A stretch of 64,000 nt of DNA from Alphaproteobacteria bacterium (lineage in GTDB: Bacteria; Pseudomonadota; Alphaproteobacteria; Rs-D84). The stretch lies in the NCBI GenBank assembly GCA_009783145.1, contig WRHR01000001.1, forward strand, positions 64,492 through 128,491. Direction: 5' to 3'. Below the pieces are notes generated by a model, which saw nothing but the letters and a program-made list of their open reading frames with translations, searched no databases and had not been told where the DNA came from. Made by a program: the position numbers and the translations under genes. Shown in pieces: positions 4,218-60,295 of this stretch. How positions within the stretch are numbered: the stretch's first letter is position 1; every line of letters starts with the position of its first letter.

Positions 4218-4243
4218 AGCTCATTCTCCAAACAAAATGATTT

Positions 4244-4346
4244 TCATTCAATGTGTCAAATGCGCGAGGGGAAAGGGGGCGTAGTGTACAAAGACGTACA
4301 TGAGCCCTCTTTCCCCTCGCGCAGGTGTTTCCGGTGGGGTAATTAA
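4244..4346 (-). ncRNA. Structured 3'-element, copy 1
   Basis: Begins at the stop codon of the lipoprotein gene. On the minus strand: TTACCCCACCGGAAA.., a long stem GCGCGAGGGGAAAG../..CTTTCCCCTCGCGC, and an apical part GGGC-TCA-TGTAC-GTCTTT-GTACA-CTAC-GCCC, then GCATTTGACACATTGAATG. Copies 2, 3 and 4 (41104, 45517, 28597) keep the shape with different stems. Whether it is a processed RNA, a 3' UTR or a REP-like DNA repeat is unknown. Confidence 0.6.
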
Positions 4347-6631: not shown

Positions 6632-7579
6632 TTACAAAATGCCGGCGAAAGCTTCCGCTACAATTTTTTTTGCTGCACTCAGGGTTGTATGAAGCTGCGC
6701 CCCCGCGGCCAAGTCATGCCCTCCCCCGCCGAAACTTTCTGCTATTTCCCTGATTGGAATCTCGCGCGACCGCAAGGAAACCCTTATGTTTTCAGGATGA
6801 GCTTCCTTTAATATCGCGACGCATTCCACGTTCTTTATCCGACGCAGAAACAGCACGATTTCCGTCTCCCCGGAATCAAGGTTTTTATAAAGAGCTTTTG
6901 GAAAAACCGCAACGGCCAACCGCCCGTGATAAAAGAATTCCGCGTCCCGCAAAACCTCGGCCTGGGCCATAATATCATCGCGCGTGGCAATGCCGACGCT
7001 TTCGGAAATTCGTCGCGGCTCTGCGCCCAAATCCACCAACGCTGCCGCTGTACGCAATGTCTGCCCTTTGTCCAGAAACGAAAATCTGAAAGTATCGCAG
7101 TAAATCCCGGAATAAAGGCAAGTCGCAGCTGACGCGCTGATTTTCCACCCCGCTTCGCGGGCGATCTCATAAACTATTTCACAGGTCGACGCGCCGATAT
7201 CCACGATATCTATATCCGCCGAAATATCCGCGGTTTTATGATGGTCGATTCTTGCCGTGACGACGGCCTCGTCAAAAAACTTTTGCTGCAAGGCGTCCAG
7301 CTGAATGGCAGAGCCCGTATCGACAACAATAACCAAGTCGTATTTCTTACCGGGCAATTTCTCGGCATAAACAAAGTTTTCACGACCGGGCAAAAAATCA
7401 AAATATATCGGCAGGTTTCCATCGTAAATGACGTCCGCCGTTCGAGCGAAATTGTCGGCGATCAGAAAGCGCAAAGCCAAAACTGCGCCAGTGGCATCGC
7501 CATCAGGATTCTTATGCCCGAAAATCAGGATAGACTTCGCAGCGGATATTTTAGCAACCAACAAATCAATTTGTTTCAT
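6632..7579 (-). CDS. DHH-family phosphoesterase (NrnA/RecJ-like)
   Basis: 315 residues, the size of NrnA-type nanoRNases / pAp phosphatases that degrade 2-5 nt RNA and 3',5'-bisphosphate adenosine; the exact substrate is not deducible. DHH domain: GHKNPDGDATGA (metal-binding DxD, about 21-32), VVDTGS, IDHHKT (signature DHH, about 113-118). DHHA1 substrate domain: GGGGHDLAAGA near residue 292. Its ATG overlaps the ruvX stop (ATGA), so the two are translationally coupled in a ruvX-nrnA order on the minus strand. Confidence 0.88.
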   Translation of the reverse strand: MKQIDLLVAKISAAKSILIFGHKNPDGDATGAVLALRFLIADNFARTADVIYDGNLPIYFDFLPGRENFVYAEKLPGKKYDLVIVVDTGSAIQLDALQQKFFDEAVVTARIDHHKTADISADIDIVDIGASTCEIVYEIAREAGWKISASAATCLYSGIYCDTFRFSFLDKGQTLRTAAALVDLGAEPRRISESVGIATRDDIMAQAEVLRDAEFFYHGRLAVAVFPKALYKNLDSGETEIVLFLRRIKNVECVAILKEAHPENIRVSLRSREIPIREIAESFGGGGHDLAAGAQLHTTLSAAKKIVAEAFAGIL

Positions 7580-8046
7580 AACTTCGCCCTTTTTATCATG
7601 GCAATTGCGTCTTGAAGTATTATCGCGGCCGCATGCTTGTCCAGAAGCTTGGCATGAGGATTCCTTTCGTTCGCCTCCCAGCTAGAAAATCTTTCGTCGA
7701 TCAATCCTATTGGCACCCCACTTCGCCCTTCGGGCTTCGAGGGGCAGGCCGCGACCGCTGCCGCCAATTTTTCGGCGAATTTCCGTACCGCCCGCGTAGT
7801 ATCCGAATCGGTGCCGTCCTCGTGAGTAGGCAAGCCCAAAACAATCCCCACAATTTTTTCGGAAACAATTATTTCAATAATCCTTTCCATTACAGCTTCG
7901 CTTGGCACATTTTCGCGCGGAAATGCGAAATCCCGCAGATCGTCGGACACGGCAAGCCCCATGCGTTTCGATCCCCAATCTATGCCCAAAAGGTGCCCGG
8001 CGGGGGGTATCGCAGCGATAAAATCCTTGAAATCCGTCAATATCAT
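7576..8046 (-). CDS. ruvX: Holliday junction resolvase-like RuvX (YqgF)
   Basis: RNase H-fold nuclease implicated in Holliday-junction resolution and 16S rRNA 5' processing. 156 residues. Acidic catalytic motifs: LLGIDWGSKRMGLAVSD, VLGLPTHEDGT, GLIDERFSSWEA, and the late LDKHAAAIILQDAI. The start at 8046 (MILTDF) is chosen because homology begins there; upstream codons read into a tandem-repeat element. Between AEKLAAAV and GVPIGLIDERF the protein has about 10 extra residues (AACPSKPEGRS) encoded by a copy of the GC-rich palindromic repeat at 7726-7760, an in-frame insertion. Confidence 0.9.
   Translation of the reverse strand: MILTDFKDFIAAIPPAGHLLGIDWGSKRMGLAVSDDLRDFAFPRENVPSEAVMERIIEIIVSEKIVGIVLGLPTHEDGTDSDTTRAVRKFAEKLAAAVAACPSKPEGRSGVPIGLIDERFSSWEANERNPHAKLLDKHAAAIILQDAIAMIKRAKL
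7726..7760. repeat. GC-rich palindromic element inside ruvX
   Basis: CCACTTCGCCCTTCGGGC / TTCGAGGGGCAGGCC, a diverged member of the family with copies at 8386, 17240, 43512, 45648 and 52733. In frame; adds about 10 residues at a surface-loop position of RuvX. Confidence 0.6.
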
Positions 8047-8065
8047 AGTATGATTATACGAAATT

Positions 8066-8204
8066 ATCGTGCAAGTGCAAGTGGTTCGTGCAAGTGCAGG
8101 TGAGTTAGTGCAGCAATATATGTTGTCCTTTATAATGGACAATGTTATTCATATTCTCTAAACCACCTTGCACCTGCACCTGCACTTGCACCTGCACGGC
8201 GAGC
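8066..8204. repeat. Tandem-repeat-arm element A (hexamer arms, TGTCC core)
   Basis: Left arm of GTGCAA/GTGCAG hexamers (8068-8113), centre TTGTCCTTTATAATGGACAA (8123-8142, one mismatch from a palindrome), right arm of complementary CTGCAC/TTGCAC hexamers (8166-8197). It fills the divergent region between ruvX and gatC, so it must contain or displace their promoters. It is followed by GGCGAGCAAAGCGAGCA, also found after the similar element at 35006-35076. Confidence 0.8.
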
Positions 8205-8219
8205 AAAGCGAGCATAACA

Positions 8220-8546
8220 ATGTCATTTACTAAACAACAACTTCAGAAATTCGCGCATCTTATCAGGCTGGATGTCAGCGACGAAAAGCTTAACGAAATG
8301 AAAATCGACGGAGTTATCGACTGGCTGGATAAGCTGCAAAAGATTGATACCTCGGGCGTCACGCCGATGCTGACCCCGGCCGAGCACTTGTCCGCCGGAG
8401 CCTTGGCGAAGGAGGATGCCCTGCCCCTGCGCGACGACGTGGTGACGGACGGAAACATCCGCGACGCGGTACTGGCGAACGTGCCGGACGATGCGGGCAA
8501 AACCCGCGGATACTTTTCCGTGCCGAAAGTAATTGACGAGGATTAA
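8220..8546 (+). CDS. gatC: Asp-tRNA(Asn)/Glu-tRNA(Gln) amidotransferase subunit C
   Basis: Small chaperone-like subunit that stabilises GatA and the GatAB interface. 108 residues; typical helical start (LQKFAHLIRLDVSDEKLNEM), then TSGVTPMLTP and the C-terminal GYFSVPKVIDED. The start at 8220 is where homology begins; upstream codons lie in the hexamer element and would give a Cys-Thr repeat peptide. About ten residues around LSAGALAKE look inserted compared with ordinary GatC and coincide with the palindromic repeat at 8386-8420. gatA follows one base after the stop. Confidence 0.88.
   Translation: MSFTKQQLQKFAHLIRLDVSDEKLNEMKIDGVIDWLDKLQKIDTSGVTPMLTPAEHLSAGALAKEDALPLRDDVVTDGNIRDAVLANVPDDAGKTRGYFSVPKVIDED
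8386..8420. repeat. GC-rich palindromic element inside gatC
   Basis: TGTCCGCCGGAGCCTTGG / CGAAGGAGGA, close to the intergenic copy at 45648. In-frame insertion adding roughly LSAGALAKE to GatC. Confidence 0.65.
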
Positions 8547-17239: not shown

Positions 17240-17274
17240 TTTGGCCTGCCACCCATAGCCTTGGCGAAGGGTGG
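17240..17274. repeat. GC-rich palindromic element abutting tRNA-Lys
   Basis: GGCCTGCCACCCATAGCC / TTGGCGAAGGGTGG; its last three bases (TGG) are the complement of the tRNA's CCA end, so the element starts exactly at or inside the CCA tail. Confidence 0.75.
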
Positions 17275-17347
17275 TGGGGTTGCAGGGACTCGAACCCTGG
17301 ACCCAGTGATTAAGAGTCACTTGCTCTACCAACTGAGCTACAACCCC
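17272..17347 (-). tRNA. tRNA-Lys (anticodon CTT)
   Basis: Cloverleaf on the minus strand: acceptor GGGGTTG/CAACCCC, D-arm GCTC-AGTTGGTA-GAGC, anticodon stem AGTGA-CTCTTAA-TCACT with CTT at 34-36, T-arm CCAGG-GTTCGAGT-CCCTG, discriminator A and an encoded CCA (17272-17274). Reads AAG codons. Confidence 0.95.
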
Positions 17348-21967: not shown

Positions 21968-23422
21968 TCACTTCAGCTCTTTCTGAGGATTATACGCCTT
22001 CGTGCCTTTGCGGATTTCAAAGTGCAATTGCGGCTCGACAACCTTCCCCGTGTTTCCGACAGTTCCGATTCTTTCGCCGATGGCTACTTTCGCGCCGCGC
22101 TGCACATGCATGATGTCAAGGTGAGCGTAAACCGTCATCCAACCGTTGGCATGCTGAACGATGACCAGGTTTCCCATTCCTTTCAGCTCGTTCCCGGCAT
22201 AAGCCACGACGCCCGCTTCGGACGCCTTGACGACGGTGCCGATGGCAGCGCCTATATTTATCCCGTCGTTATAAAGGCCGTTCGCCTTGTATCCAAAGTC
22301 GGATAAGATCTTGCCGCGCACCGGCCAGGCGAATTTCATCTGCGCTTTGGCGGCAACCGCGGGCAAGGGTTTTGTCGGCGCGCTGGATATTTTCTTTTTC
22401 TCTTCGACTATTTTTGCGGCGTTTCTTCTCTGCCGCTGTTCCAACTCCTGCTTTTGTTTTTCTGCATCGATCCTTTTCTTTTCCGCTTCCTCTTTCTTCT
22501 TTGCCGCTTCCTTTTGCTGTTTTTCGGTTTCAGCTTTCTTGGCGGCTTCCTCGGCCTTCTTCTTCTCTTCTTCTATTTTTTTCTTTTCGGCTTCCAGTTT
22601 TTGTTTATCCGCCTCTATCTTCTTATTCTCGGCGTTCAGTTTTTCAAGTTCCCTCAAAGCATCCTCGTTCTGTTTGGCGCTTTGCGCGGGCGACGCGGCA
22701 TCGGAGGTTGCGACAATCTTCGCGGGCAAGCGAAGCTTTTGCCCCACATTCAGCGCATAAGGCGCGGATAAATTATTTTCCGTCGCCAGAGAGTTCAAAT
22801 CCACCGAATACGCGCGGCTGATGGAATACAGAGTGTCGCCGGCAACTATGGTATGCATGCGCGCGCTCGGCAGCTTTAATTTCTGGCCGACCGAAATCGC
22901 ATAAGGCGCGGCCAATGCGTTCGCGTCGACAAAATCGCGCAGGGGGACATCGTGCTTTTTCGAGAGGGAATAAACGGTGTCGCCTTTTGCGACAATTATA
23001 TCGCCGTTTGCGGGCGCGACGATTTCTGGCTTCGCGTCGTTCTTTGCGGCGCGAGCCGGAACCAGCAAGACATCGTCAGGCTCGGGCGGCGGCGCAGCTG
23101 CGGGTGCAGGTACGGGTTCCGGTTTGGGTTCGGGCTTTGGTTCGGGTTTCAGTTCGGGCGCCGCAACTTTGGGCTCCGGCTTTGCTTGCACCTGTACGGG
23201 CATCACATAATCGTTTTTACTAGAACGTTGGATATAATCATCCCCAGCCTCTATCTGAATATACTCGTCCGTGCTGATGCTATTGCCGTATTCAAAGGCT
23301 TTGTTTTCAACCGGAACTGGTTGCGAATAAGACTCGCCGCCGGCAATTCTCTCGTGCAAGTCACATGCGCCAAGGGCGCATAAGGCACAGAGCATAGAGC
23401 ACAGAGCATAGATTTCTTTCAT
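21968..23422 (-). CDS. LysM-M23 lipoprotein (NlpD/DipM-like, degenerate LytM)
   Basis: 484 residues. Lipoprotein signal peptide ending LGAC (Cys20); its hydrophobic core YALCSMLCALCAL is encoded by a heptamer array. Proline-rich region (80-115), two LysM domains (about 141-185 and 189-233) for peptidoglycan binding, a long Lys/Glu coiled coil (about 250-350) and a C-terminal LytM domain. The late HxH (PQLHFEIRKG) and YAHLD are present, but the first Zn ligands are replaced: GLYNDGINIGA where active enzymes have HxxxD. This is typical of NlpD/EnvC-type amidase activators rather than hydrolases. TATAAT ends nine bases before the ATG, so the mRNA may be leaderless. Divides the envelope block from the glycosyltransferase operon. 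Confidence 0.85.
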   Translation of the reverse strand: MKEIYALCSMLCALCALGACDLHERIAGGESYSQPVPVENKAFEYGNSISTDEYIQIEAGDDYIQRSSKNDYVMPVQVQAKPEPKVAAPELKPEPKPEPKPEPVPAPAAAPPPEPDDVLLVPARAAKNDAKPEIVAPANGDIIVAKGDTVYSLSKKHDVPLRDFVDANALAAPYAISVGQKLKLPSARMHTIVAGDTLYSISRAYSVDLNSLATENNLSAPYALNVGQKLRLPAKIVATSDAASPAQSAKQNEDALRELEKLNAENKKIEADKQKLEAEKKKIEEEKKKAEEAAKKAETEKQQKEAAKKKEEAEKKRIDAEKQKQELEQRQRRNAAKIVEEKKKISSAPTKPLPAVAAKAQMKFAWPVRGKILSDFGYKANGLYNDGINIGAAIGTVVKASEAGVVAYAGNELKGMGNLVIVQHANGWMTVYAHLDIMHVQRGAKVAIGERIGTVGNTGKVVEPQLHFEIRKGTKAYNPQKELK

Positions 23423-23512
23423 ACTGTTGGAATTATATCATAAATCGAGTAATAAATAAACGCCGCAAAGCGGCGTTATCTGTGCTCTATGCTCTGTGCT
23501 CTGTGCTCTTTC
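23365..23512. repeat. Tandem-repeat-arm element D (AGAGCAY heptamers)
   Basis: Palindrome ATGCGCC-AAG-GGCGCAT (23365-23381, coding the NlpD lipobox), heptamers AGAGCAT/AGAGCAC (23385-23413), spacer, hairpin AACGCCGC-AAA-GCGGCGTT (23459-23477), complementary heptamers (23482-23512) in the tatC 3' end. Confidence 0.8.
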
Positions 23513-24219
23513 TTCATGAACAGCACGGCGATTTCGAACAAAGCCCAAAGCGGCAGCGCAAGCATAATCTGCAAAACAATATCCGGCGGGGTCAATATAG
23601 CGCCGACGATGAAAAAACCGACTATGGCATACCGGCGGGACTTGACTACCGCCGCTCTGGACAGTATGCCTATTCTGTTCAGCAACACCAGAACCAGCGG
23701 CAGTTGAAACGCCAATCCGAATATCTTCAACAGGCCGACCACGAAAGACAAATAGCTGCCGGCAACCGGCAGGAAAGTCGCGGGCACGGGCGCAGCTTCG
23801 TTCATTTCTACGAAAAATCCGAATACTACCGGAAACATAAAATAATAAGCGAACGCCGCGCCCAAAAGGAATAAAACGGGCGACAGGATAAGTATCGGCG
23901 CGACAAGCTGCTTTTCCGGCTTATGTAATCCGGGCGCGACGAACGCCCAAATATGCCAAAGCAATACGGGGACTGTCGCGAATATGGCGAATAATGTCGC
24001 AAGCGAGAATTGTATGAACAGCCCGTCGGTGACATTCGTATAAAGCATCTTGCCACCATCGCTCCAAACGGAAAGCAGCGGCCTTGTCAGAAACTCTTGA
24101 ATATAAGGCGCCAGGAACCATCCCAAACCGAACGCGGCGCAAAACCAGACAAGGCACCAAATCAACCGCCGGCGCAGTTCCACGAAATGCTGAAGAAGCG
24201 TCATTTTCGCTTCGCTCAT
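23476..24219 (-). CDS. tatC: Sec-independent translocase subunit TatC
   Basis: Polytopic receptor for twin-arginine signal peptides. 247 residues with six membrane helices. The cytoplasmic N-terminus MTLLQHFVELRRRLIW carries the conserved HFxELRRR motif; the periplasmic loop and VAPGLHKPEKQ are typical; the P48-like and E-containing YYFMFPVVFGFF region is present. The last ten residues (EHRAQSIEHR) are encoded by a heptamer array of element D and the TAA falls at the array end. Overlaps tatB by four bases; tatA is 19 kb away at 43483. Confidence 0.94.
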   Translation of the reverse strand: MSEAKMTLLQHFVELRRRLIWCLVWFCAAFGLGWFLAPYIQEFLTRPLLSVWSDGGKMLYTNVTDGLFIQFSLATLFAIFATVPVLLWHIWAFVAPGLHKPEKQLVAPILILSPVLFLLGAAFAYYFMFPVVFGFFVEMNEAAPVPATFLPVAGSYLSFVVGLLKIFGLAFQLPLVLVLLNRIGILSRAAVVKSRRYAIVGFFIVGAILTPPDIVLQIMLALPLWALFEIAVLFMKKEHRAQSIEHR

Positions 24220-31415: not shown

Positions 31416-32449
31416 TTTATAACTTTCTTTATTATCTGCGCGACCTGATCCATCTCTTCGACGGTGTTCCAAGGCCCTGCGGAAATTCGTATAGTGGAGT
31501 CCAGCCCCAGCCGTTGGTGCAGCCAGGACGCGCACATGTTTCCGACGCGCAGGCAAACCCCATGCGCGCCCATCATGGCACCGAAATCATAAGCATGCAT
31601 TCCATCAACAATAAAGGTCAGCAACGCCGCACCCGCCGGCGATATAAATTTAATTCTATCGATCTTCTCCAATTCTCCGCGCAAATAATTTATCTTATCT
31701 ATGCTCTGTGCTCTATGCTCTATGCTCTCCGCTAACGCAGCTGGCAAACCTGCCAGCTGCGTTAGCGGTAAAGTTCCCGCTTCGAACCGCGAGGGACCGG
31801 TCGCTTTGAATTGCCCGCCGCCGAACTTGTCGGTCTGCCAGCGGTCAGGCTCCTTTAAATATAAGATGCCCAGCCCCGTATCGGCGCCAATCTTGTGTCC
31901 GGAAAAAACCAGCGCATCTGGGGCCATTTCCGCCACATTAATCTTTTCATGCGCGACAAGCTGCGCGGCATCTATAATCGTGATTCGCTTTTTATCCTTT
32001 ATAATCTTCTGCGGAACGCCCAATACATTAGACATGGCCGTAATAACAGCCGCGTCGCATTCCGGAACGGACTTATAATCAAAGTCTTTATCCAATTCGC
32101 ATAATACGGTTTTATGCTTTTCTTGCATCGGAAGCCGTGCGGAGTGATGATCCAGATCGGAAACCGCGACGACTGATTTTGGGGGCAACATATTGGCGAT
32201 TCTATTAAGCCCGTCGGTCGCGCCGCTTGTAAATATTATTTGTTCCGGACCAGCGCTGATAAATTTGGCAACCGCCAAGCGCGCGGTCGCAACCATGCGG
32301 TCGGCGTAATCCGCACGCTCGCATACTCCGCGCCCCGAATTCGCATAATGATTCTGCAGAAAATCAAGCTGGGCGTCTATTACGGACTGTGGTTTTAAAG
32401 CGCTGGCGGCCGCATCTAAATATAAGACTTCTTTCTTATTTGGCAACAT
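31412..32449 (-). CDS. sufS: Cysteine desulfurase SufS (NifS-like)
   Basis: PLP enzyme that converts cysteine to alanine and passes sulfur to SufE. 345 residues, some 50 fewer than usual SufS, the shortfall mainly at the N-terminus. Visible: YLDAAASALKPQSVI, FTSGATDGLN, DLDHHSARLPMQ, internal-aldimine Lys in FSGHKIGADTG, and the catalytic Cys in VGNMCASWLHQ. Residues around LAESIEHRAQSIDK are encoded by a heptamer array bounded by a perfect 18-bp inverted repeat (31699-31768). Start of a sufS-sufT-sufE-ftsL-ftsI run. Confidence 0.92.
   Translation of the reverse strand: MLPNKKEVLYLDAAASALKPQSVIDAQLDFLQNHYANSGRGVCERADYADRMVATARLAVAKFISAGPEQIIFTSGATDGLNRIANMLPPKSVVAVSDLDHHSARLPMQEKHKTVLCELDKDFDYKSVPECDAAVITAMSNVLGVPQKIIKDKKRITIIDAAQLVAHEKINVAEMAPDALVFSGHKIGADTGLGILYLKEPDRWQTDKFGGGQFKATGPSRFEAGTLPLTQLAGLPAALAESIEHRAQSIDKINYLRGELEKIDRIKFISPAGAALLTFIVDGMHAYDFGAMMGAHGVCLRVGNMCASWLHQRLGLDSTIRISAGPWNTVEEMDQVAQIIKKVIK
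31699..31768. repeat. Tandem-repeat arm plus flank palindrome inside sufS (element G)
   Basis: Heptamers ATGCTCT/GTGCTCT (31699-31728) then a perfect inverted repeat CCGCTAACGCAGCTGGCA-AACC and its complement (31729-31768). Only one array is present. Confidence 0.8.
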
Positions 32450-36108: not shown

Positions 36109-36220
36109 CACCTCCCCCAAAGAATGGGGGAGGAAAGAGTTGGCTTATCGGCGACCCCGGGCCCCACCGAAATCATAGATTTCGGTGGGTGGGTGCCGAT
36201 TAGCAACTCTTGGAGAGGGC
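36109..36220. repeat. Twin-hairpin repeat with a nested palindrome
   Basis: CCTCCCCC..GGGGGAGG hairpin, then AAAGAGTTGGCTTATCGGC paired with GCCGATTAGCAACTCTT and GGAGAGGG. Inserted in its loop at 36154-36195 is ACCCCGGGCCCCA-CCGAAATC..GATTTCGG-TGGGTGGGTG, the same small palindrome family as at 45556-45595. Confidence 0.7.
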
Positions 36221-38094: not shown

Positions 38095-40197
38095 TCACTT
38101 CCGTTTTCTGCGCAGAATCGCGATACATAAAATTGAAAACGCCAGTATGATCGCCATCATCCAGTCGCGCCCGATATAACGATAAGGCGTCATATGCGCG
38201 GCACCCACCGTGCCGTCCAGCGCGCCCGCAAAGCCAATGGGTATACTGGAAACAACATGCCCGTCCGCGCCGATAAAGGCGGAAATTCCGGAATAGTTCG
38301 CGCGCACGACGGGAAGTCCCATCTCTATTGCCTGGCGCCGCGCCATATCAAGATGCTGATAAGTTCCGGGCGTGCGCCCGAACCAAGTATCATTGGTAAG
38401 ATTCACTATGGCTTGCGGATTCGTCCCACGCGGTACTAGTGAATCACTAAATATAATCTCATAACAAATAGCTGGAACAAAATTAATTGCTAATTGCTCA
38501 TTGCTAATTGCTAATTGCGTGGCGCCCGCGCCACGCGACAGTTGCCCCGGAGTCGGGATAATATCGCCCAGCGGGCGGTATTCGCCGAACGGCACCAGAT
38601 GCGATTTCGAATAGATGTTTTCAATCTTTCCATCCGCATTCGCGACAATCATAGAGTTATAAAAACTTCCGTCCCGCCAACTGGTCGCGCCGATTATGAT
38701 GGGCCGCCCTAGTTCGCGCGCCAACGGTAAATCATCGCCTTCCTGGCGGATCACAAAAGGATATACCGTTTCAGGAAAAACTATTATATCGGGATTCCCC
38801 GGCGCCTGCGCCAACTCCGCCAGTTTCTGAATATTTTCATTCGCATTAGCGATCGCTTGCTCGCGCGAGTGCGTGGCCTTTTGCTCGGCGCTTCGCGCAG
38901 GCTGAACGATTCGGATTACCGGACGATTGCAACTGCCTTTGCAGAATTCAATACTGCCCAATATATTCCAGTAACCATATCCGATTCCAATAATTGATAA
39001 CGACGCAAATATTCCAGCATTAATAAAATTACCTTTTGCTTTTCTGCTGATGAAAAATTCAGTAATGCTTGCGGTAAATCCCACGATTATAAATGTCAGC
39101 CCCAGCGCGCCCCATAAAGACATGCTGTTGCTGAGCGCTGGAAACGGCATGGTAATATTGGCAACAGGATTCCAAGGAAAACCCGTCAGAAACCATTCTC
39201 GCAACCACAGCACCGCCGTCCAAGCGGCGGCGAATAAAATCGCCCGACCCCGCGGCGGCGTCCATCGACGGCGAAGAGCTAAAAACGGGAGCGAGAAAAC
39301 CAGCGCGCCTCCTATTGCAATCCCGATAATCCCCGGGATGGTCCAAATCGCGAACTCGGCAGCCAATTCCGGCACCACATATATAGAGTTCAAAACCCAC
39401 CAAAAGCTGGCTACGGCATACGCCGCGCCGAAGAGTATAGAGTAAAGCACAGATTTATCCGATCGTTTTGTAACCAGATAATACGCCCCGCCAATCCCCA
39501 GTATTGTCGCCCACCATAAATTGAACGGAGCAAACCCAAGCGAAGCTACCGCTCCGCAGAGCATAGAGCATAGAGCATAGAGCATAGAGTTTTTCCAACT
39601 TATTTTATCTTTGCTCTTTGCTCTTTGCTCTTCGCTCTGACAATTCGCCAAAGGCGAATTGTCGTACGGTTTTTTTATCCCCAGCTGCGCGAGAATCCTG
39701 ACTTCCAGCGCCTCCATCGTGCGCGCGTCCTTGTCGTCGCAATGATCATAGCCCAGCAAATGCAGAACTCCATGCACGATAAGATGGGTGGCATGGTCTA
39801 TAAAATTTTTATCTATGCTCTGTGCTCTATGCTCTATGCTCTCTCGTTTGACGGAGTCAAACGAGATATAAATATCTCCCATCAGCTCCGCATCGCCGGT
39901 CTCGAACGAGAGGACATTAGTCGGCGTATCTTTGCCGCGGTATTTTTTGTTCAGCTTTTGAATTTCCGGGTCATCGGTAAGAATAATCGAAACCTCGCGG
40001 CTTATCTTCCCGAACGCCGCGCCCACACCTACGCTGGGCATCCAAGGAGCAATCGTCCAGTTTGATTTTTTTATTATGTCTTCGGTCTTGTCGTTCGCCA
40101 TCGCGGCGCGCATGGCCACATTCACAATATGCGCGAAATCAATCCGGTATTTATCCCACCGGGAATCGTTAATTGTGATAAATGTTTTTACAGACAT
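38095..40197 (-). CDS. YbeY endoribonuclease - Lnt apolipoprotein N-acyltransferase fusion
   Basis: 700 residues. Residues 1-175 are YbeY, the 16S rRNA maturation/quality-control RNase, with its zinc motif VHGVLHLLGYDH (His142, His146, His152). Residues about 205-700 are Lnt, which N-acylates lipoproteins: six to eight membrane helices and a nitrilase domain with Glu in FPETVYPF, Lys in YSKSHLVPFGE and Cys in ICYEIIF. The two are normally separate, often neighbouring, genes. The junction (about 176-215) is encoded by element L, and the YbeY part carries another array (SIEHRAQSID, about 120-130). Start 40197 follows TTGCAA-N17-TATAAT by six bases with no ribosome site: leaderless. Confidence 0.9.
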   Translation of the reverse strand: MSVKTFITINDSRWDKYRIDFAHIVNVAMRAAMANDKTEDIIKKSNWTIAPWMPSVGVGAAFGKISREVSIILTDDPEIQKLNKKYRGKDTPTNVLSFETGDAELMGDIYISFDSVKRESIEHRAQSIDKNFIDHATHLIVHGVLHLLGYDHCDDKDARTMEALEVRILAQLGIKKPYDNSPLANCQSEEQRAKSKDKISWKNSMLYALCSMLCGAVASLGFAPFNLWWATILGIGGAYYLVTKRSDKSVLYSILFGAAYAVASFWWVLNSIYVVPELAAEFAIWTIPGIIGIAIGGALVFSLPFLALRRRWTPPRGRAILFAAAWTAVLWLREWFLTGFPWNPVANITMPFPALSNSMSLWGALGLTFIIVGFTASITEFFISRKAKGNFINAGIFASLSIIGIGYGYWNILGSIEFCKGSCNRPVIRIVQPARSAEQKATHSREQAIANANENIQKLAELAQAPGNPDIIVFPETVYPFVIRQEGDDLPLARELGRPIIIGATSWRDGSFYNSMIVANADGKIENIYSKSHLVPFGEYRPLGDIIPTPGQLSRGAGATQLAISNEQLAINFVPAICYEIIFSDSLVPRGTNPQAIVNLTNDTWFGRTPGTYQHLDMARRQAIEMGLPVVRANYSGISAFIGADGHVVSSIPIGFAGALDGTVGAAHMTPYRYIGRDWMMAIILAFSILCIAILRRKRK
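38483..38536. repeat. Heptamer array and palindrome in the lnt part (element K)
   Basis: ATTGCTA heptamers (38483-38517) then CGTGGCGC-CC-GCGCCACG (38518-38535); encodes QLSRGAGATQLAISNEQLA in Lnt. Confidence 0.75.
39558..39663. repeat. Tandem-repeat-arm element L at the YbeY-Lnt junction
   Basis: Heptamers AGAGCAT (39558-39589), spacer, complementary TTGCTCT heptamers (39605-39638), palindrome GACAATTCGCC-AAA-GGCGAATTGTC (39639-39663). In frame throughout; encodes the linker between YbeY and Lnt. Confidence 0.85.
39812..39866. repeat. Heptamer array and palindrome in the ybeY part (element M)
   Basis: ATGCTCT/GTGCTCT heptamers (39812-39841) then TCTCGTTTGAC-GGA-GTCAAACGAGA (39842-39866). 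Confidence 0.8.
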
Positions 40198-41060: not shown

Positions 41061-41090
41061 AAAACAAAATCGCGGCAAAGCCGCGACAAA
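41060..41090 (-). terminator. Terminator after the ftsK 3'-element
   Basis: Minus strand TCGCGGC-TTT-GCCGCGA followed by TTTTGTTTTT. Confidence 0.85.
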
Positions 41091-41103
41091 AAACAAATCA
41101 TTC

Positions 41104-41203
41104 ACATTCAATGGGTCAAATGCACGTGATGGGATGGGGCGTAGCGTACAAAGACGTACGTGAGCCCCATCCTATTACGCGCAGGTGATTTCCGGTGGGG
41201 TAA
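41104..41203 (-). ncRNA. Structured 3'-element, copy 2
   Basis: Directly after the ftsK stop. ATTACCCCACCGGAAATCACC.., stem GCGCGTAATAGGATG../..CATCCCATCACGTGC with G-U pairs, apical GGGC-TCA-CGTAC-GTCTTT-GTACG-CTAC-GCCC, then CATTTGACCCATTGAATG. Confidence 0.62.
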
Positions 41204-43441
41204 TCAAAGTATATGTCTCTTATTATTAGCATCGGGCCCGCTGACAATTCCCTCGCGCTCCATTCGCTCGATAAGTCCCGCGGCCTTGTTATATCCGATG
41301 CCAAGCCGGCGCTGGATATAAGATATCGTCGGCTTTTTATCTTTCACGACATATTCGACAGCCTGCCGATACAGGTCCGCATCCTTCGCGTCTTTCGAAA
41401 CCGGCATGCCGGGTATTCCCGCAAGCGCGCTATCGGCCGCGCTGCCAAAGCTTTCATCGTCAGGATCGCCTATGCCGTCTATATATTCCGGAGCACCCTG
41501 AGCCCGCAAGAAATCCGCCACTTTATTGATTTCTTTGTTTTCAATCCAAGCGCCATGTATGCGCACGGGGACCCTGCCCGCCTCGCTGAACAACATATCC
41601 CCGAACGGCAGCAATTGCTCCGCGCCCTTTTCGCCCAAGGTCGTCATAGAATCGATATTCGACCGCGCCTGGAAAGAAATTCGCGTCGGAAAGTTCGCTT
41701 TTATAACGCCGGTTATGACGGATGTATCCGGCCGCTGCGTCGCCGCGACAATATGCATCCCCGCCGCGCGCGCTTTCTGCGCCAGGCGCTGGACGCAGGC
41801 CTCGACCTCTTTGCGCGCCACGCTCATCAAGTCCGCAACCTCATCAATTATTATCACCAAATAGGGCATGTCGGACAGATCTACTTCCCGATCCTCGAAT
41901 TCCAACGCGCCGGTTTCTGGGTCGGTTCCGACGGCGACTTGCTTTATTAATTTCTCGCCATTGGCGCGCAGCCGGGCCACGGCCTCGTTATACCCCTCCA
42001 GATTCTGCGCGCCCAAGTCTTTGAGTTTCTTGTACCTATCTTCCATCTCGCGCACCGCCCATTTCAAGGCATTGACCGCCATATTCGCGTCCGCCACCAC
42101 CGGAGTGATAAGATGTGGTATATCCTGCCACAGCGTGAAGTCGACGCCTTTGGGATCAACGATGAGCAGCTTGCATCTGTCGGGCGTGAAATGATAAACG
42201 ATGGACATGATTATGGATTGGACGAATACGGATTTCCCCGAGCCCGTGCGCCCCGCAATCAAAGCATGCGGCATCTTGGCCAAGTCGAAATAAACCGGAC
42301 GGCCGCCTATATCCACGCCCAGCGCCAAAGGTATGTGATAGCGCGAATTCACAAAATCCGGATTCGTAATCAGCGATTGAAAGCGCACGATCTGGCGGTT
42401 CAGATTCACCATTTCGACGCCGATATAATTGCTGCGCGGGATGTGCGCTATGCGGATATTTTCGGCAGCCATTGCGCGCGTCATATCTTTGACGGTGTCG
42501 GTGATTTTAGCAATGCGCATGCCGGAATCGGGTTCGAATTCATAGAGAGTGACAATAGGGCCGGGCTTTATGCCGGCGACTTTTCCGTAAACGCCGAATT
42601 CTTCGAAATGCGCCTCCAGCGCGGATGCGTTGCGTTTCAGCTCGTTGGTCACGATATTTTTGGAAAATATGGATTTCTCCAAATACTCGGGCAAAGGCAA
42701 TTCATAATCAGTAGACGTCGGCCGCCGACCGCTAACAACAGCCGCTTTCGCTTTTTTCTTACCGGATTTTCTTTTTACTTCTTTTTCTTCTTCCCCGTCT
42801 TCTTCTTCTGTTTCTTCCTCTTCGTCATCAGGTTCTCTCGGCGCCACCGGGCGCAGGCGCAGGACGTTCAGGAAAAACTTGAGCGCCTTGAAAACCACCG
42901 CACCCAGCATCCTGACATCTTTCCATCTGACATGCAAAAGAACGCCGGCTATGAATAAAAACACGGCGATGAAAACTATTCCGAACACGACACCGAACCC
43001 CGGAATCAGCCGCGACAGGTCATACGCGGCGATCGCGCCAAGCAATCCGCCCCAAGACTTCGACGGCATGATCGCGCCGAGTCCAAAAGCGCCGAACACG
43101 GCCGCAAGAAACGCACGCAGGATATCGTATTCGGGAGCGTTATTTTCCCATTTCAGCATAATTGCGACGCCAACGCGCATAGCGAACAGAAAAACAAACA
43201 GCGCGGGAATAAACCCGATTCCGTAACCCACAAATCCGATGATGTTCCCGATCAGGCTCTGGCGCCCGAAGTTAGAGGCGGCGGCGAATCCGTCCAAGTA
43301 AGGGTTATGAAAAATCAGAGCAATCGCCAATCCCAACCCGATCAGCAGCAATGCCAGCCCGGCGCCGCGAAAAGCAGCACCGCGCACGGCGCCGGAAACG
43401 GAATCCGGCAGGAAATTAGTCTTCTTGGACTTTGCAGCCAT
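41204..43441 (-). CDS. ftsK: DNA translocase FtsK
   Basis: Septal DNA pump that clears chromosomes and activates XerCD at dif. 745 residues: four N-terminal membrane helices (about 30-180), an acidic/basic linker (EEEETEEEDGEEEKEVKRKS), and the motor with Walker A in AGRTGSGKSVFVQS, Walker B in YLVIIIDEVADLM, and GMHIVAATQRPDTSVITG. The C-terminal gamma winged-helix (YIQRRLGIGYNKAAGLIERM) binds KOPS sequences. A complete protein, at the short end for FtsK. Structured element copy 2 follows the stop. Confidence 0.95.
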   Translation of the reverse strand: MAAKSKKTNFLPDSVSGAVRGAAFRGAGLALLLIGLGLAIALIFHNPYLDGFAAASNFGRQSLIGNIIGFVGYGIGFIPALFVFLFAMRVGVAIMLKWENNAPEYDILRAFLAAVFGAFGLGAIMPSKSWGGLLGAIAAYDLSRLIPGFGVVFGIVFIAVFLFIAGVLLHVRWKDVRMLGAVVFKALKFFLNVLRLRPVAPREPDDEEEETEEEDGEEEKEVKRKSGKKKAKAAVVSGRRPTSTDYELPLPEYLEKSIFSKNIVTNELKRNASALEAHFEEFGVYGKVAGIKPGPIVTLYEFEPDSGMRIAKITDTVKDMTRAMAAENIRIAHIPRSNYIGVEMVNLNRQIVRFQSLITNPDFVNSRYHIPLALGVDIGGRPVYFDLAKMPHALIAGRTGSGKSVFVQSIIMSIVYHFTPDRCKLLIVDPKGVDFTLWQDIPHLITPVVADANMAVNALKWAVREMEDRYKKLKDLGAQNLEGYNEAVARLRANGEKLIKQVAVGTDPETGALEFEDREVDLSDMPYLVIIIDEVADLMSVARKEVEACVQRLAQKARAAGMHIVAATQRPDTSVITGVIKANFPTRISFQARSNIDSMTTLGEKGAEQLLPFGDMLFSEAGRVPVRIHGAWIENKEINKVADFLRAQGAPEYIDGIGDPDDESFGSAADSALAGIPGMPVSKDAKDADLYRQAVEYVVKDKKPTISYIQRRLGIGYNKAAGLIERMEREGIVSGPDANNKRHIL

Positions 43442-43457
43442 AAGATTATTTTACCAT

Positions 43458-43484
43458 AAAAAACCGCGCAATGCGCGGTTTTTT
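43458..43484 (-). terminator. Terminator of the SPOR-tatA operon
   Basis: AAAAAACCGCGC-AAT-GCGCGGTTTTTT, abutting the tatA stop codon. Confidence 0.9.
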
Positions 43485-43755
43485 ATTTCTTTTTAGCGGC
43501 AGGCTTTTTCGCCGGCTTGCCCGCCGTAGCCTTGGCGGAGGTGGGCGCTTTCTTTTTCGCCGTTTTTTTTACGATTGCCGTCTTTTCTGCGGGCTTTACA
43601 TCCTTTTTCTCGCCCTCTTCGTCGCCTTTAAGCTCTTTCTTAAATATATTGATTCCGTTGGCCAAGTTCTTCATTACATCCGGAATTTTCGAATGCCCGA
43701 ACAGAACCAGAATCAATATGACAATTAAAAGTATTTCCCAAAAACCAGCTCTCAT
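43483..43755 (-). CDS. tatA: Sec-independent translocase subunit TatA
   Basis: 90 residues. Short N-terminal membrane helix (FWEILLIVILILVLF), the conserved hinge FGHSKIPDVMKNLANGI and amphipathic helix, then a Lys/Ala-rich tail. TatA polymerises at TatBC to form the passage for folded proteins. It lies 19 kb from tatBC, 24 bases after the SPOR gene. A palindromic repeat (43512-43550) encodes APTSAKATAGKPA in the tail, a tolerant region. Confidence 0.92.
   Translation of the reverse strand: MRAGFWEILLIVILILVLFGHSKIPDVMKNLANGINIFKKELKGDEEGEKKDVKPAEKTAIVKKTAKKKAPTSAKATAGKPAKKPAAKKK
43512..43550. repeat. GC-rich palindromic element inside tatA
   Basis: GGCTTGCCCGCCGTAGCC / TTGGCGGAGGTGGGCGC; in-frame in the disordered TatA tail. 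Confidence 0.75.
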
Positions 43756-45414: not shown

Positions 45415-45516
45415 ATCATTCCTCTTGTTATATAAGGATATTATATCATAAAAATCAAAAGAAAGAAATAAAAAGTGGTGGGAAATACACGCCCCAACCA
45501 AAAATCAAATTATTCA

Positions 45517-45687
45517 CATTCAATGGGTCAAATGTGCGTTGGGGGGGATGGGGCGCACCCACCCACGGAAAACTTTGTTTTCCGCGGGGCCCGGGAAGCG
45601 TACAAAGATGTACGAGAGCCCCATTCCACTACGCACAGGTGATTTCCGGCCTGTCCGCCGTAGCCTTGGCGTAGGCGGATGAGGTAA
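45517..45687 (-). ncRNA. Structured 3'-element, copy 3, invaded by two palindromes
   Basis: Directly after the stop of the small lipoprotein gene. It keeps CGGAAATCACC, the stem, CGTAC-ATCTTT-GTACG and CATTTGACCCATTGAATG. At 45556-45595 the apical loop is interrupted by a CACCCACCCAC../..GGGGCCCGGG palindrome, and at 45648-45684 the base is interrupted by a CCTTGGCG palindrome. Confidence 0.62.
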
Positions 45688-45825
45688 TTACTTCGGAGTA
45701 TTGCCGAAATTCGGCGGAACTATCAGCTTATGATTCTGTTCCACAATCGGCTCTTTCTCGCAGTTGCAGCAGCCGGCAACAAAGAGCAAAGAGCAGAGAG
45801 CAAAGAGCAAAGATAATTTTTTCAT
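45688..45825 (-). CDS. Small lipoprotein (45 residues)
   Basis: ATG 45825, stop at 45688. MKKLSLLFALCSLLFVAGC is a lipoprotein signal peptide with lipobox VAGC; the mature part is CNCEKEPIVEQNHKLIVPP and ends NFGNTPK. The hydrophobic core is encoded by TTGCTCT heptamers (45781-45812). AAAGGAAATGTC before the ATG supports translation. The LIVPPNF motif resembles the start of DUF3035/BamF-type lipoproteins (inference from a short motif). Small, but signal peptide, lipobox, ribosome site and 3'-element all point to a real gene. Confidence 0.72.
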   Translation of the reverse strand: MKKLSLLFALCSLLFVAGCCNCEKEPIVEQNHKLIVPPNFGNTPK

Positions 45826-50586: not shown

Positions 50587-52163
50587 TTTTCAATCCTTTC
50601 CCGCACGCGCGATGCGCCCATAACTTGCATTATGGAGTAAAGGTCTGGCGTGTTTGTACGACCGGTAAGCGCCACGCGCAAAGCCATCGCCGCATCGCCA
50701 TTTGATATGCCCAACCGCGCCGCGATTTCTGTAATCTTCTTCCACCAAGCATCCTTGTCATCGGTAATATCAAAGGCCTTCAGGAATTCGGATAAAACTT
50801 TTTTATCTATATCTTGCGCGGCGATTTGAAACAAGTCATCAAAGAAATATGCAACCTCTTCCAGCGTCTGCTTCCAGGTAATAAAGTCTTTTCTGATACG
50901 TTTTGGGTTATCACGTTCAATGCCGAGAACCGCATGCAAGTAATCACCCTGCCCGCGGGTCCGCGCGGCCCATTCGGGAGAATACTCATCTGCCCAATCG
51001 CTCACGCACCGGGTTAATTCATCAACGCTCAGCGTTGCGATAAACTCCTTCGCCCACCATTCCAATTTCTTCATATCGAACAGCGCGCCGCTGGTTGGAA
51101 TTTTTTTGATTTTAAAAGCCGGATATTCCCATATTGTTTTTACCTGGCCTTTGGTCTTTGCTTCTTCATATCCGCTGGCTGCCAGGTTGAATATGTATTC
51201 CAGAACGGCTTCCGTTGGCCAGCCGTTTTCAACATAGAATCCAGCGGCCGATTCTGGGTCTTTGCGTTTAGATAATTTGCGCTGATTGCCCGTTTCCTCA
51301 TCAAACTTGTCAATCGTGAAAGTATGCGCGAAAACAGGCGGAGCCCAACCCATCATATCATACAGCTGGACATGCAAGGGCAACGACGCCAGCCACTCGT
51401 TGGCGCGCACCACGTGCGTCACGCGCATAAAATGGTCGTCGCACAACATTGCAAAATGATACGTCGGCAGCCCGTCGTTTGATTTTACGATAACAATATC
51501 TTCGTTATTTTCAGGGAATGCGACCGAACCGCGAATTCCCTCTTTGCAGAAAATACGACGCGACGGGTCGCCGGTAGAATAAAGCCGCACGGACGGCGTT
51601 TCGCCCGCGTTAAGCCGCGCGATTATTTCATCTTCGGTCAGGTCTCTGTCGCGGGCATATTCGCCATAAATCCCGGTCGGAAATCCCGCCGCGGATTGCT
51701 TTGCGCGAATGTCCTCCATCTCGATGGGCGAAAGAAAGCAAGGATATGCCCGCCCCGTGGCCAAAAGTTCTGCCGCAACGGAATGATAGATGTCTTTGCG
51801 CTGCGACTGAATATAAGGACCGTAATGTCCGCCCCGCTGCGCGCCTTCGTCGTCCGAAAGCCCGAATCTTTCCAGCCAATTTAAAATCAATTCCGTTGCG
51901 CGTTCCACTTCGCGCTTGGTATCCGTATCCTCTATGCGCACTATGAACACGCCGCCGGAATCTTTGGCCAGTTTTTTATTTATCATGGCCATCATCACGG
52001 TCCCGATGTGCATAAAACCCGTAGGGCTTGGCGCAATGCGCGTCACCATCGCGCCCTCGGGCAAGTTGCGCGGAGGGAACTTTTCTTCCAACTCTGCAAT
52101 CGTCCATTTGGGCGCGCCACCAAGCACCCTTGCGATTAAATCTGTGGATAAACCCATTCTCAT
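50574..52163 (-). CDS. gltX: Glutamyl-tRNA synthetase
   Basis: 529 residues, class I synthetase. Catalytic motifs HIGH-like in APSPTGFMHIGT and KMSKS-like in RKLSKRKDPES, plus the family segments FIVRIEDTDTKR and YHFAMLCDDHFMRVTHVVR. An N-terminal extension of about 38 residues precedes the first motif (with PPRNLPEGAMVTRIAPSP), as in a divergent GluRS subgroup. With GatCAB present, this enzyme is expected to be non-discriminating, charging tRNA(Gln) with Glu (inference). ATG 52163 has AAAGGCAAACGAA upstream. Confidence 0.93.
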   Translation of the reverse strand: MRMGLSTDLIARVLGGAPKWTIAELEEKFPPRNLPEGAMVTRIAPSPTGFMHIGTVMMAMINKKLAKDSGGVFIVRIEDTDTKREVERATELILNWLERFGLSDDEGAQRGGHYGPYIQSQRKDIYHSVAAELLATGRAYPCFLSPIEMEDIRAKQSAAGFPTGIYGEYARDRDLTEDEIIARLNAGETPSVRLYSTGDPSRRIFCKEGIRGSVAFPENNEDIVIVKSNDGLPTYHFAMLCDDHFMRVTHVVRANEWLASLPLHVQLYDMMGWAPPVFAHTFTIDKFDEETGNQRKLSKRKDPESAAGFYVENGWPTEAVLEYIFNLAASGYEEAKTKGQVKTIWEYPAFKIKKIPTSGALFDMKKLEWWAKEFIATLSVDELTRCVSDWADEYSPEWAARTRGQGDYLHAVLGIERDNPKRIRKDFITWKQTLEEVAYFFDDLFQIAAQDIDKKVLSEFLKAFDITDDKDAWWKKITEIAARLGISNGDAAMALRVALTGRTNTPDLYSIMQVMGASRVRERIEKCLK

Positions 52164-52203
52164 TTCGTTTGCCTTTGCTGTTCCAGCATTTTATACTAAA
52201 AAT

Positions 52204-52938
52204 ATGGAAAAACAAGAAATAAGAACTTTCGGGCGGGTTCGCGGGAAAAAGCTTTCCGCCCGCCAGCAATGGCTGGTGGATAACTTGTTGCCGGAACTGG
52301 CGCCCACCGGCCCTGACCCCGACCCCAACATCATTCTAGAAATCGGCTTTGGGGCTGGCGAGCATCTGCTGCACCTGGCAGCCGCGCACCCCGACAAGTT
52401 GATAATAGGCGCCGAGCCCTTTATAAACGGGGTCGCGTCATTGCTGTCGCAAATGACGCAGAGCACAGAGCATAGAGCACAGAGCATAGATAATGATAAT
52501 TTATTAAATCTCATCAAACCCGAGTATCGCAATATTAGAATTTGGCCTGATGACGTGAGAAAGCTTTTTACTCTTTCACTCTCTCGCTCTTCTACTCTGC
52601 AAAATCCAGGTTTGCGCTTTGCGCAGATCTGGATTTTGCATCCCGACCCTTGGCCCAAGACAAGGCATGAAAAGCGCCGTTTATTGAGCGCAGAGTTTTT
52701 GGAATTACTGGCCGGCCGTCTTGCCCCCAAAGGCCTGCCGCCCGAAGCCTCGGCGAAGGGCGGGCAAATTATAATCGGAACCGACCATTACGAGTATTAC
52801 GATTGGATTTTGGAACAGGTAAAAAAAACACGCCTAACGACTAGCGACCAGCGACTAGCGACTATTGATACCCGCTACCAGCGCAAGAACAAGGCGGGGA
52901 CGGCCGAGCCAAAGTATTTAATCCTAGGAAAAGCCTAG
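52204..52938 (+). CDS. trmB: tRNA (guanine-N7-)-methyltransferase TrmB
   Basis: Forms m7G46 in tRNA. 244 residues. SAM site IILEIGFGAGEHLLHL (about 43-58), the signature WILHPDPWPKTRHEKRRL (about 143-160) and GTDHYEYYDW. Four segments look inserted: TQSTEHRAQSID (about 86-97), LFTLSLSRSSTLQNPGL (121-137), GLPPEASAK (177-185) and TRLTTSDQRLATIDT (209-223); each is encoded by a tandem array or palindrome, so this one enzyme has absorbed four repeats in frame. -10 TATACT ends six bases before the ATG: leaderless. Convergent with the lysozyme gene. Confidence 0.93.
   Translation: MEKQEIRTFGRVRGKKLSARQQWLVDNLLPELAPTGPDPDPNIILEIGFGAGEHLLHLAAAHPDKLIIGAEPFINGVASLLSQMTQSTEHRAQSIDNDNLLNLIKPEYRNIRIWPDDVRKLFTLSLSRSSTLQNPGLRFAQIWILHPDPWPKTRHEKRRLLSAEFLELLAGRLAPKGLPPEASAKGGQIIIGTDHYEYYDWILEQVKKTRLTTSDQRLATIDTRYQRKNKAGTAEPKYLILGKA
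52455..52872. repeat. Four repeat insertions within trmB
   Basis: AGAGCAY heptamers (52455-52497); ACTCTTTC-type octamers (52569-52597) joined to TGCAAAATCCAG..CTGGATTTTGCA (52598-52640); GC-rich palindrome GGCCTGCCGCCCGAAGCC..GGGCGGGCA (52733-52768); CGACTAG heptamers (52836-52872). Confidence 0.82.
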
Positions 52939-59645: not shown

Positions 59646-60295
59646 GCAACCATCCCAATAAATGCGCCCAACAGGACGTCGGACGGGAAATGAGCCCCAA
59701 CCGCGACGCGCGAAACACCGATAATTACGGCCAGCGTCCAAGTCGCCCATTTGAACCGCGGGAACATCAGCCCGATCATGACCAAGGCGGCAAAGCTGGC
59801 CGTCGCATGGCCGCTCGGCATGGAATTAAACGCCCAATCGCTTGTGAACGGATAAAAACCGACCTGCTCCAGCTCTTCCAGAAACACCGGGCGCATACGG
59901 CCCAGTGAAAATTTCAAAATCCATCCGACCGCGCCGGATAACAATAGAGCACAGAGCATAGAGCATAGAGCATAGTTATTCGCGTACTTGAATTTTGTAA
60001 TGCTTCTTTTAATAAAAGGAATTAATTTGAATTTTTTATTATCTATGCTCTGTGCTCTGTGCTCTGTGCTCTTGATTGCGACTGCGATAGCGTATGCTAT
60101 CGCAGTCGCAATCACCCAAACTTTGAACGAAGTTACCGCGCCGATAATGTGCGCCCAGGCGCCATCAAATCTGCGCAGGAAAAAGTAAAGCGGAGCATCC
60201 AGCCAGAAAATGCCAGCCAGACACAAAGCCGCGACGGTTCCCACCGCAATCGCAATCCATTTCCATTTAAGAGTATTATTTTTATTCAGAAACAT
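59615..60295 (-). CDS. PAP2-family phosphatase
   Basis: 226 residues, five or six membrane helices. Acid-phosphatase motifs: KFSLGRMRP (C1), MPSGHATASF (C2) and SRVAVGAHFPSD (C3), with the catalytic His residues. Such enzymes dephosphorylate undecaprenyl or phosphatidic lipids in the envelope. Two arrays are inside: AIKSTEHRAQSIDN and NYALCSMLCALLLSG, the latter forming part of a membrane helix, with a 19-bp palindrome between native sequence and array (60074-60115). The ATG is one base after the S41-type gene stop. Confidence 0.88.
   Translation of the reverse strand: MFLNKNNTLKWKWIAIAVGTVAALCLAGIFWLDAPLYFFLRRFDGAWAHIIGAVTSFKVWVIATAIAYAIAVAIKSTEHRAQSIDNKKFKLIPFIKRSITKFKYANNYALCSMLCALLLSGAVGWILKFSLGRMRPVFLEELEQVGFYPFTSDWAFNSMPSGHATASFAALVMIGLMFPRFKWATWTLAVIIGVSRVAVGAHFPSDVLLGAFIGMVAADLIVAARR
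59944..60115. repeat. Tandem-repeat-arm element T inside the PAP2 gene
   Basis: AGAGCAY heptamers (59946-59975), spacer of about 65 bases, complementary heptamers (60044-60073), then perfect palindrome TGATTGCGACTGCGATAGC-GTAT-.. (60074-60115). Confidence 0.85.

Follow-up and report, generated by a model that had tools for sequence, protein, structure and literature searches.

Six copies of a 30-bp palindromic unit occur in the window (the whole 64-kb stretch of DNA that was analysed), and about 100 occur in its host genome, based on covariance-model matches. We consider it probable that the unit is a minimal, non-autonomous, REP-like mobile element consisting of a CYTG tag and a hairpin-bulge-hairpin. 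It appears to represent minimal mobile DNA of a kind not described before, and no Rfam family matches at the element.

Copies and anatomy of the unit

The covariance-model matches in the window have E ≤ 4.5e-11 for five copies and 7.8e-6 for the variant in ruvX. The copies are as follows.

7716-7748, minus strand: copy in ruvX (7576-8142, minus strand); 33-bp loop variant CCTGCCCCTCGAAGCCCGAAGGGCGAAGTGGGG, in frame, adding 11 residues
8387-8416, plus strand: copy in gatC (8142-8546, plus strand); 30 bp, in frame, adding LSAGALAKED
17245-17274, plus strand: copy at the 3' end of tRNA-Lys (17272-17347, minus strand); 30 bp
43516-43545, plus strand: copy in the C-terminal tail of tatA (43483-43755, minus strand); 30 bp, antisense TSAKATAGK
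45650-45679, plus strand: intergenic copy within a dispersed repeat, empty forms of which lie at 41143 and 4283; 30 bp
52734-52763, plus strand: copy in trmB (51916-52938, plus strand); 30 bp, in frame, adding LPPEASAKGG

All six palindrome sites named in the sequence-only reading are therefore real, and Pfam confirmed its gene assignments (RuvX, GatC, TatA and a TrmB-type methyltransferase). Its range of 7726-7760 was shifted relative to the ruvX unit, and the 9-13 added residues that it gave are in fact exactly 10, or 11 in ruvX.

The host genome (G000; 0.947 Mb, 24 contigs, 92% complete) has alphaproteobacterial gene content. The core GCCTTGGCGAAG has 37 matches in it and the reversed pattern 0, and GTAGCCTTGGCGAAGG with up to three mismatches has 76 matches compared with 7 for the reversed pattern. 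Host copies were located by pattern and model searches and then read stretch by stretch. Aligned copies follow the order CYTG, 6-base arm, GNA, GCC, TY, GGC, GNA, complementary arm, which corresponds to an unpaired tag and two stems, the outer one of 6 bp and the inner one GCC/GGC, separated by a GNA/GNA internal loop. The CYTG tag is present in 48 of 55 host copies. The edges are sharp: base preference falls off outside the 30 aligned positions, where only a weak (C/T)GG on the 5' side and TGC or AGC on the 3' side are seen. Some loop variants (CGAAG, CATCG, CAGCG, TCGAAAA and TCGCAGA) lengthen the inner hairpin.

Both stems are maintained through compensatory changes. The arms occur as TCCGCC/GGCGGA, CCACCC/GGGTGG, TCCCCC/GGGGGA, CCCGCC/GGCGGG, TCACCC/GGGTGA and TCCAAC/GTTGGA, and the inner stem alternates between GCC/GGC and GCT/AGC, both sides changing together. 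Changes on both sides were found for six of the six outer pairs and one of the three inner pairs (92 cells, compared with 27 in shuffles). Since this alignment was pre-filtered for at least five of six paired arm positions, we made an unfiltered control on copies picked by the core alone, in which 37 of 60 copies pair at all four free positions, compared with 12.6% of shuffles.

Insertion into repeats, genes and tRNA ends

A discrete unit of fixed length entered its sites cleanly. The clearest case in the window is a dispersed, intergenic repeat of ~110 bp that carries its own hairpin (GGGGCGTAG...GAGCCCC) and is present in three copies (4227-4345, 41087-41205 and 45499-45695). The site is empty at 41143 and 4283, where it reads TTTCCGG^TGGGGTAAT, and filled at 45597, where TTTCCGG is followed by the 30 bp and then TGAGGTAAT. 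Filled and empty copies differ by exactly 30 bp, and this comparison within the window gives no target-site duplication. Insertion without such a duplication is also a trait of HUH-type elements (IS200/IS605). The repeat copy that holds the element contains, in addition, a second palindromic insertion of ~41 bp (CACCCACCCACGGAAAACTTTGTTTTCCGCGGGGCCCGGGA, 45555-45596); the other two copies, at 41140 and 4280, lack it, and it has a reverse-complement relative at 36156-36196.

Based on comparison with a genome of the same genus (G001), excision of the unit (30 bp, or 33 in ruvX) gives gapless protein alignments for gatC, ruvX, trmB, lysS, queA, uvrA, hemW, rsmH and dnaE. The sequence-only reading had proposed looking for the same residues in relatives without the palindromic DNA. 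When this was done, G001 proved to be without the residues in gatC, ruvX, trmB, lysS, queA, uvrA and others. In gpmI it had similar residues, over an eroded copy in which 26 of 36 bases are alike and the pairing is lost. We take this for an old insertion common to both genomes, in which the residues have outlasted the palindrome, rather than for an original segment of the protein. The insertion history is less clear in ftsW and dnaG, for which excision gives no gapless match and G001 has unrelated residues of similar length.

About 35 of the roughly 65 host copies examined are in ORFs that have a Pfam match or a relative. Besides ruvX, gatC, tatA and trmB in the window, the host genes with copies include dnaG, ftsW, lptD, dnaE, tatD, lysS, queA, gpmI (two), EF-Ts, a HemW-like radical-SAM protein, pyruvate:ferredoxin oxidoreductase, recG, rsmH, rnhB, uvrA, murF (two), tpiA and leuS. 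Judging from the translated ORFs, copies in essential genes keep the frame open and would be read as about ten extra residues, which agrees with the earlier description of a dispersed GC-rich palindrome that lies in frame and does not destroy the reading frame. In UvrA, the ten residues enter at Gly-Gly and the solved Geobacillus enzyme aligns unbroken on both sides. Both orientations and five of the six reading frames are in use; a hand count of 43 ORF copies gave 4/15/0 for the sense frames and 15/4/5 for the antisense frames (chi-square, p = 4e-5). The frame with zero copies contains TAG in units with a GTAG core; with other cores it would give a peptide rich in Cys, Pro and Trp. Unit lengths within ORFs are multiples of three. 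This length and frame bias fits ordinary translation plus selection against harmful inserts. Genes seem to be tolerated rather than preferred, because about half of the copies in the related carrier G003 lie outside ORFs of 80 codons.

In-frame copies also occur in other phyla (Patescibacteria, Elusimicrobia, Verrucomicrobia), in yidC, leuS, radA, rarA, a TPP enzyme, a glycosyltransferase and others. In leuS, two MAGs, one of them from Roizmanbacteria, have the element at apparently the same site, before KSYVLA (L089 6905, L148 3792), which suggests long retention within one lineage.

Six copies are situated at tRNA or tRNA-like 3' ends, where they provide the CCA: tRNA-Lys in the window, Val (L010), Leu (L019), Tyr (L015) and two tRNA-like 3' parts (L020, L035). 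The order is the discriminator base, CCACCC...GGGTGGCRRG or GGGTGGCAGG, and CCA. At tRNA-Lys, the CCACCC arm gives the tRNA its CCA, the old CCA comes after the element, and an ordinary terminator-like hairpin lies downstream of the copy. Read most simply, the element inserted after the discriminator base and ahead of the CCA, its own CCACCC arm giving the new CCA. We considered a CCA-type target-site duplication, given that the tRNA copies show CCA on both sides, and rejected it; the filled and empty window repeats have none, and the first CCA is therefore attributed to the element's arm. Read on the opposite strand, the tRNA-end target is the general TGG target. The 35-bp variants that were located are all at tRNA ends.

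Distribution across relatives, phyla and viruses

Based on the covariance model, the host has 100 copies, several further genomes of the family have 15 to 44, and none were detected in G001; the family pattern is patchy (100, 0, 32 and 44 copies). The element expanded in the host lineage in a burst, with about 100 copies compared with none detected in a genome of the same genus.

A scan of 84,980 species returned at least 116 stretches from at least 12 phyla, according to record titles. A 25-mer consensus is common to at least 12 phyla, cultured isolates included, and the positions that the search pattern left free (the first C of the tag and the last four bases) agree across phyla. Copy numbers in whole genomes, with those of the reversed control in parentheses, are 105 (1) in a Kiritimatiellae MAG, 45 (2) in a cyanobacterial MAG, 35 (2) in Verrucomicrobia, 28 (3) in Tantalella, 27 (0) in Opitutaceae and 26 (1) in Saprospiraceae. 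Most carriers are MAGs. Binning error as the sole cause is excluded because isolates carry the element as well: Geomonas paludis has 23 copies (1), Bradyrhizobium hereditatis 19 (1) and Niastella soli 17 (1). Matches were found in 4 of 398 genomes of Pseudomonadota and in 60 of 288 genomes of the phylum of the Kiritimatiellae MAG (G075), the reversed pattern giving 0 in both. The element is also present in 59 viral stretches. Horizontal spread is the best reading of this distribution.

Units nested within units were observed in Omnitrophota, Acidobacteria and Verrucomicrobia. The idea that entry is always into GCGNAGC mini-hairpins was rejected, as it holds for a subset only: 12 of 117 far copies have the full CGN^AGC (0.2 expected), and 8 of these 12 belong to one Bradyrhizobium composite repeat. 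There, the element lies within another dispersed palindrome, GCGAGCGNAGCGA^AGCAATCC (L083, L091, L092, L095, L107, L113, L114, L124), and the composite repeat may be spreading in Bradyrhizobium.

Known palindrome families and candidate modes of movement

Among known families, the element is best read as REP-like and non-autonomous, with a tag of a third type. It has the layout of the GTAG REP/RAYT/REPtron system, a palindrome of 20-40 bp with an unpaired tetranucleotide at one end and an internal bulge (PMC3733652, PMC2817692, PMC6006769), and like GTAG REPs it is a short, high-copy stem-loop (30 bp, about 100 copies) with compensatory stem variants and some copies in frame in genes. Unlike them, it ends in CYTG rather than in GTAG, GYAG, GTRG or GTGG, and its stem is 6 bp. 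A GTAG-tagged reading was tried and rejected, because GNAG lies within the unit and is variable at its second base. Neither a RAYT in the host nor a repeat-flanked RAYT gene was found. GTAG REPs form species-specific families, whereas the element is one near-identical sequence across phyla. With CGTC REPs, it shares that they are tagged alphaproteobacterial palindromes, in frame in essential genes and without a known dedicated transposase (PMC3733652). It differs from them in its tag (CYTG instead of CGTC, TGTC or CCTC), in its stem (6 bp instead of 8-9 bp starting from AT), in its bulged two-part hairpin in place of a 4-5 nt loop, and in having no CCA tail outside the stem. Intragenic REPs are already known as such, for example in frame in uvrA and tRNA synthetases (PMC3733652, PMC2817692, PMC6006769). 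Open-access papers yielded neither the element DNA nor the insert peptides in this context. The tag sets the element apart from the GTAG and CGTC superfamilies, and overlap with a published REP consensus is possible.

As a REP-like mobile element, the unit would move in the form of a hairpin of single-stranded DNA that is cut at its foot, the CYTG, and joined again at targets resembling CGG or TGG. The enzyme would act in trans and would most likely be a transposase of the Y1 (HUH) type or a similar recombinase acting on single strands, which the host may have lost or met only transiently. The extra peptide would be tolerated, not useful, with selection retaining the insertions that do little harm through length, reading frame or position. 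More tentatively, and with somewhat less than even confidence, we propose a third, CYTG superfamily of palindromes: one 30-bp parasite in at least a dozen phyla that spreads with viruses or through uptake of DNA, inserts at CGG/TGG-like sites, among them other hairpins and tRNA CCA ends, and is moved by an unrecognised enzyme, possibly long orphan RAYTs.

If the element is what we propose, it is among the smallest mobile units common to many phyla, thirty bases or ten codons. Its tolerated presence in dnaE, leuS, uvrA, lysS and tRNA ends would be a natural test of how far essential proteins accept insertions, and it would account for the unusual ten-residue inserts (SAKATAGK, LRQGYGGQ, RRSLGEGG) that recur in the proteins of uncultured bacteria. 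It would also become testable what agent mobilises REP-like palindromes lacking their own transposase.

It is possible, though on balance we doubt it, that the element is an ordinary REP moved by a resident RAYT (TnpA-REP), perhaps by long RAYTs (subclasses 2.1/2.3); this is a specific form of the enzyme step proposed above. A tag with a bulged hairpin is the layout that RAYT enzymes recognise (PMC6006769). Many Y1 ORFs of element-rich genomes are ~300-340 aa long, and subclasses 2.1/2.3 are without known flanking REPs. Across the 288 genomes of the phylum of G075, Y1 genes occur in 53 of 60 carriers compared with 160 of 228 non-carriers (p = 0.005), with a median of 6 compared with 2 genes (p = 1e-7), neither value being corrected for ancestry or genome size. 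In chemical terms Y1 transposases are suitable, yet searches of the host and of four related carriers (G003, G013, G016, G021) gave no Y1_Tnp (PF01797) match with E ≤ 0.001. Also against a resident RAYT, one genome (G634) has 7 strict copies and no Y1, and at 30 Y1 loci in far element-rich genomes 0 have the element nearby. In L050, a copy at the tail of groEL is ~250 bp away from a weak Y1 gene. A scan around Y1 genes gave 15 CYTG hairpins compared with 8 in shuffles, and none are alike. In the relative G008 (L050), a Y1-type gene is located between copies of a long repeat, tggtggggcgactttgtcccaaagtcgcc...caaacctgccccacc (1297-1380 and 1885-1952), a REPtron-like layout that is unrelated to the CYTG unit.

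We regard as improbable a functional signal (DNA uptake sequence, protein-binding site or RNA hairpin) spread by site-wise selection and not by mobility of its own. The conserved core and structure and the copies at tRNA ends would suit a signal, and uptake sequences also occur within genes. The clean 30-bp insertions in otherwise aligned genes speak against it, as do the use of both orientations and five reading frames, the nested units and the lack of detected copies in G001; the tRNA-Lys copy, moreover, is already followed by a terminator-like hairpin. Very improbable is translational bypassing or removal of the insert from the RNA, in which the ten codons are never translated. Hairpins do lie within ORFs of essential genes, as mitochondrial byp elements lie within ORFs, but bypassing would not require triplet lengths or frame bias, and the triplet lengths observed in ORFs, the placement of the located 35-bp variants at tRNA ends and the lack of copies in the TAG-prone frame therefore count against it.

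Least credible is a local family of Rickettsia palindromic elements (RPE), in line with the sequence-only reading. In-frame palindromes in a small alphaproteobacterial genome favour it, as does the family member G003, whose element coordinates match exactly those in JAISAB01, a deposit named Rickettsiales bacterium Gx481_bin12; it is contradicted by the presence of the element in at least 12 phyla and by its tag. The RPE-like in-frame behaviour in protein genes stands, while a Rickettsiales speciality does not, given the many phyla and the viral contigs. RPE-1 likewise inserts in frame in many unrelated genes with no obvious loss of function, unlike the element in being restricted to Rickettsia, and its insert is much longer than ten residues. 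Yeast mitochondrial GC clusters are short, GC-rich mobile palindromes as well, some of them in frame, and are restricted to the organelle. RPE-4 and RPE-6 of Rickettsia conorii are CGTC-tagged REPs (PMC3733652), and the CYTG tag supports the earlier suggestion of a family separate from known RPEs.

The window also holds a second repeat family, heptamer arrays of (AGAGCAY)n, at 23385-23421, 23476-23532, 31695-31744, 39555-39597, 39809-39858, 52457-52505, 59940-59985 and 60030-60088. The pattern has 35 matches in the host genome compared with 0 for its reverse, and most relatives have none. The arrays are also in frame in several ORFs, namely trmB (peptide EHRAQSID), a YbeY-Lnt ORF, a NifS-like ORF, a PAP2-like ORF and tatC, so that trmB holds both the 30-bp element and a heptamer array.
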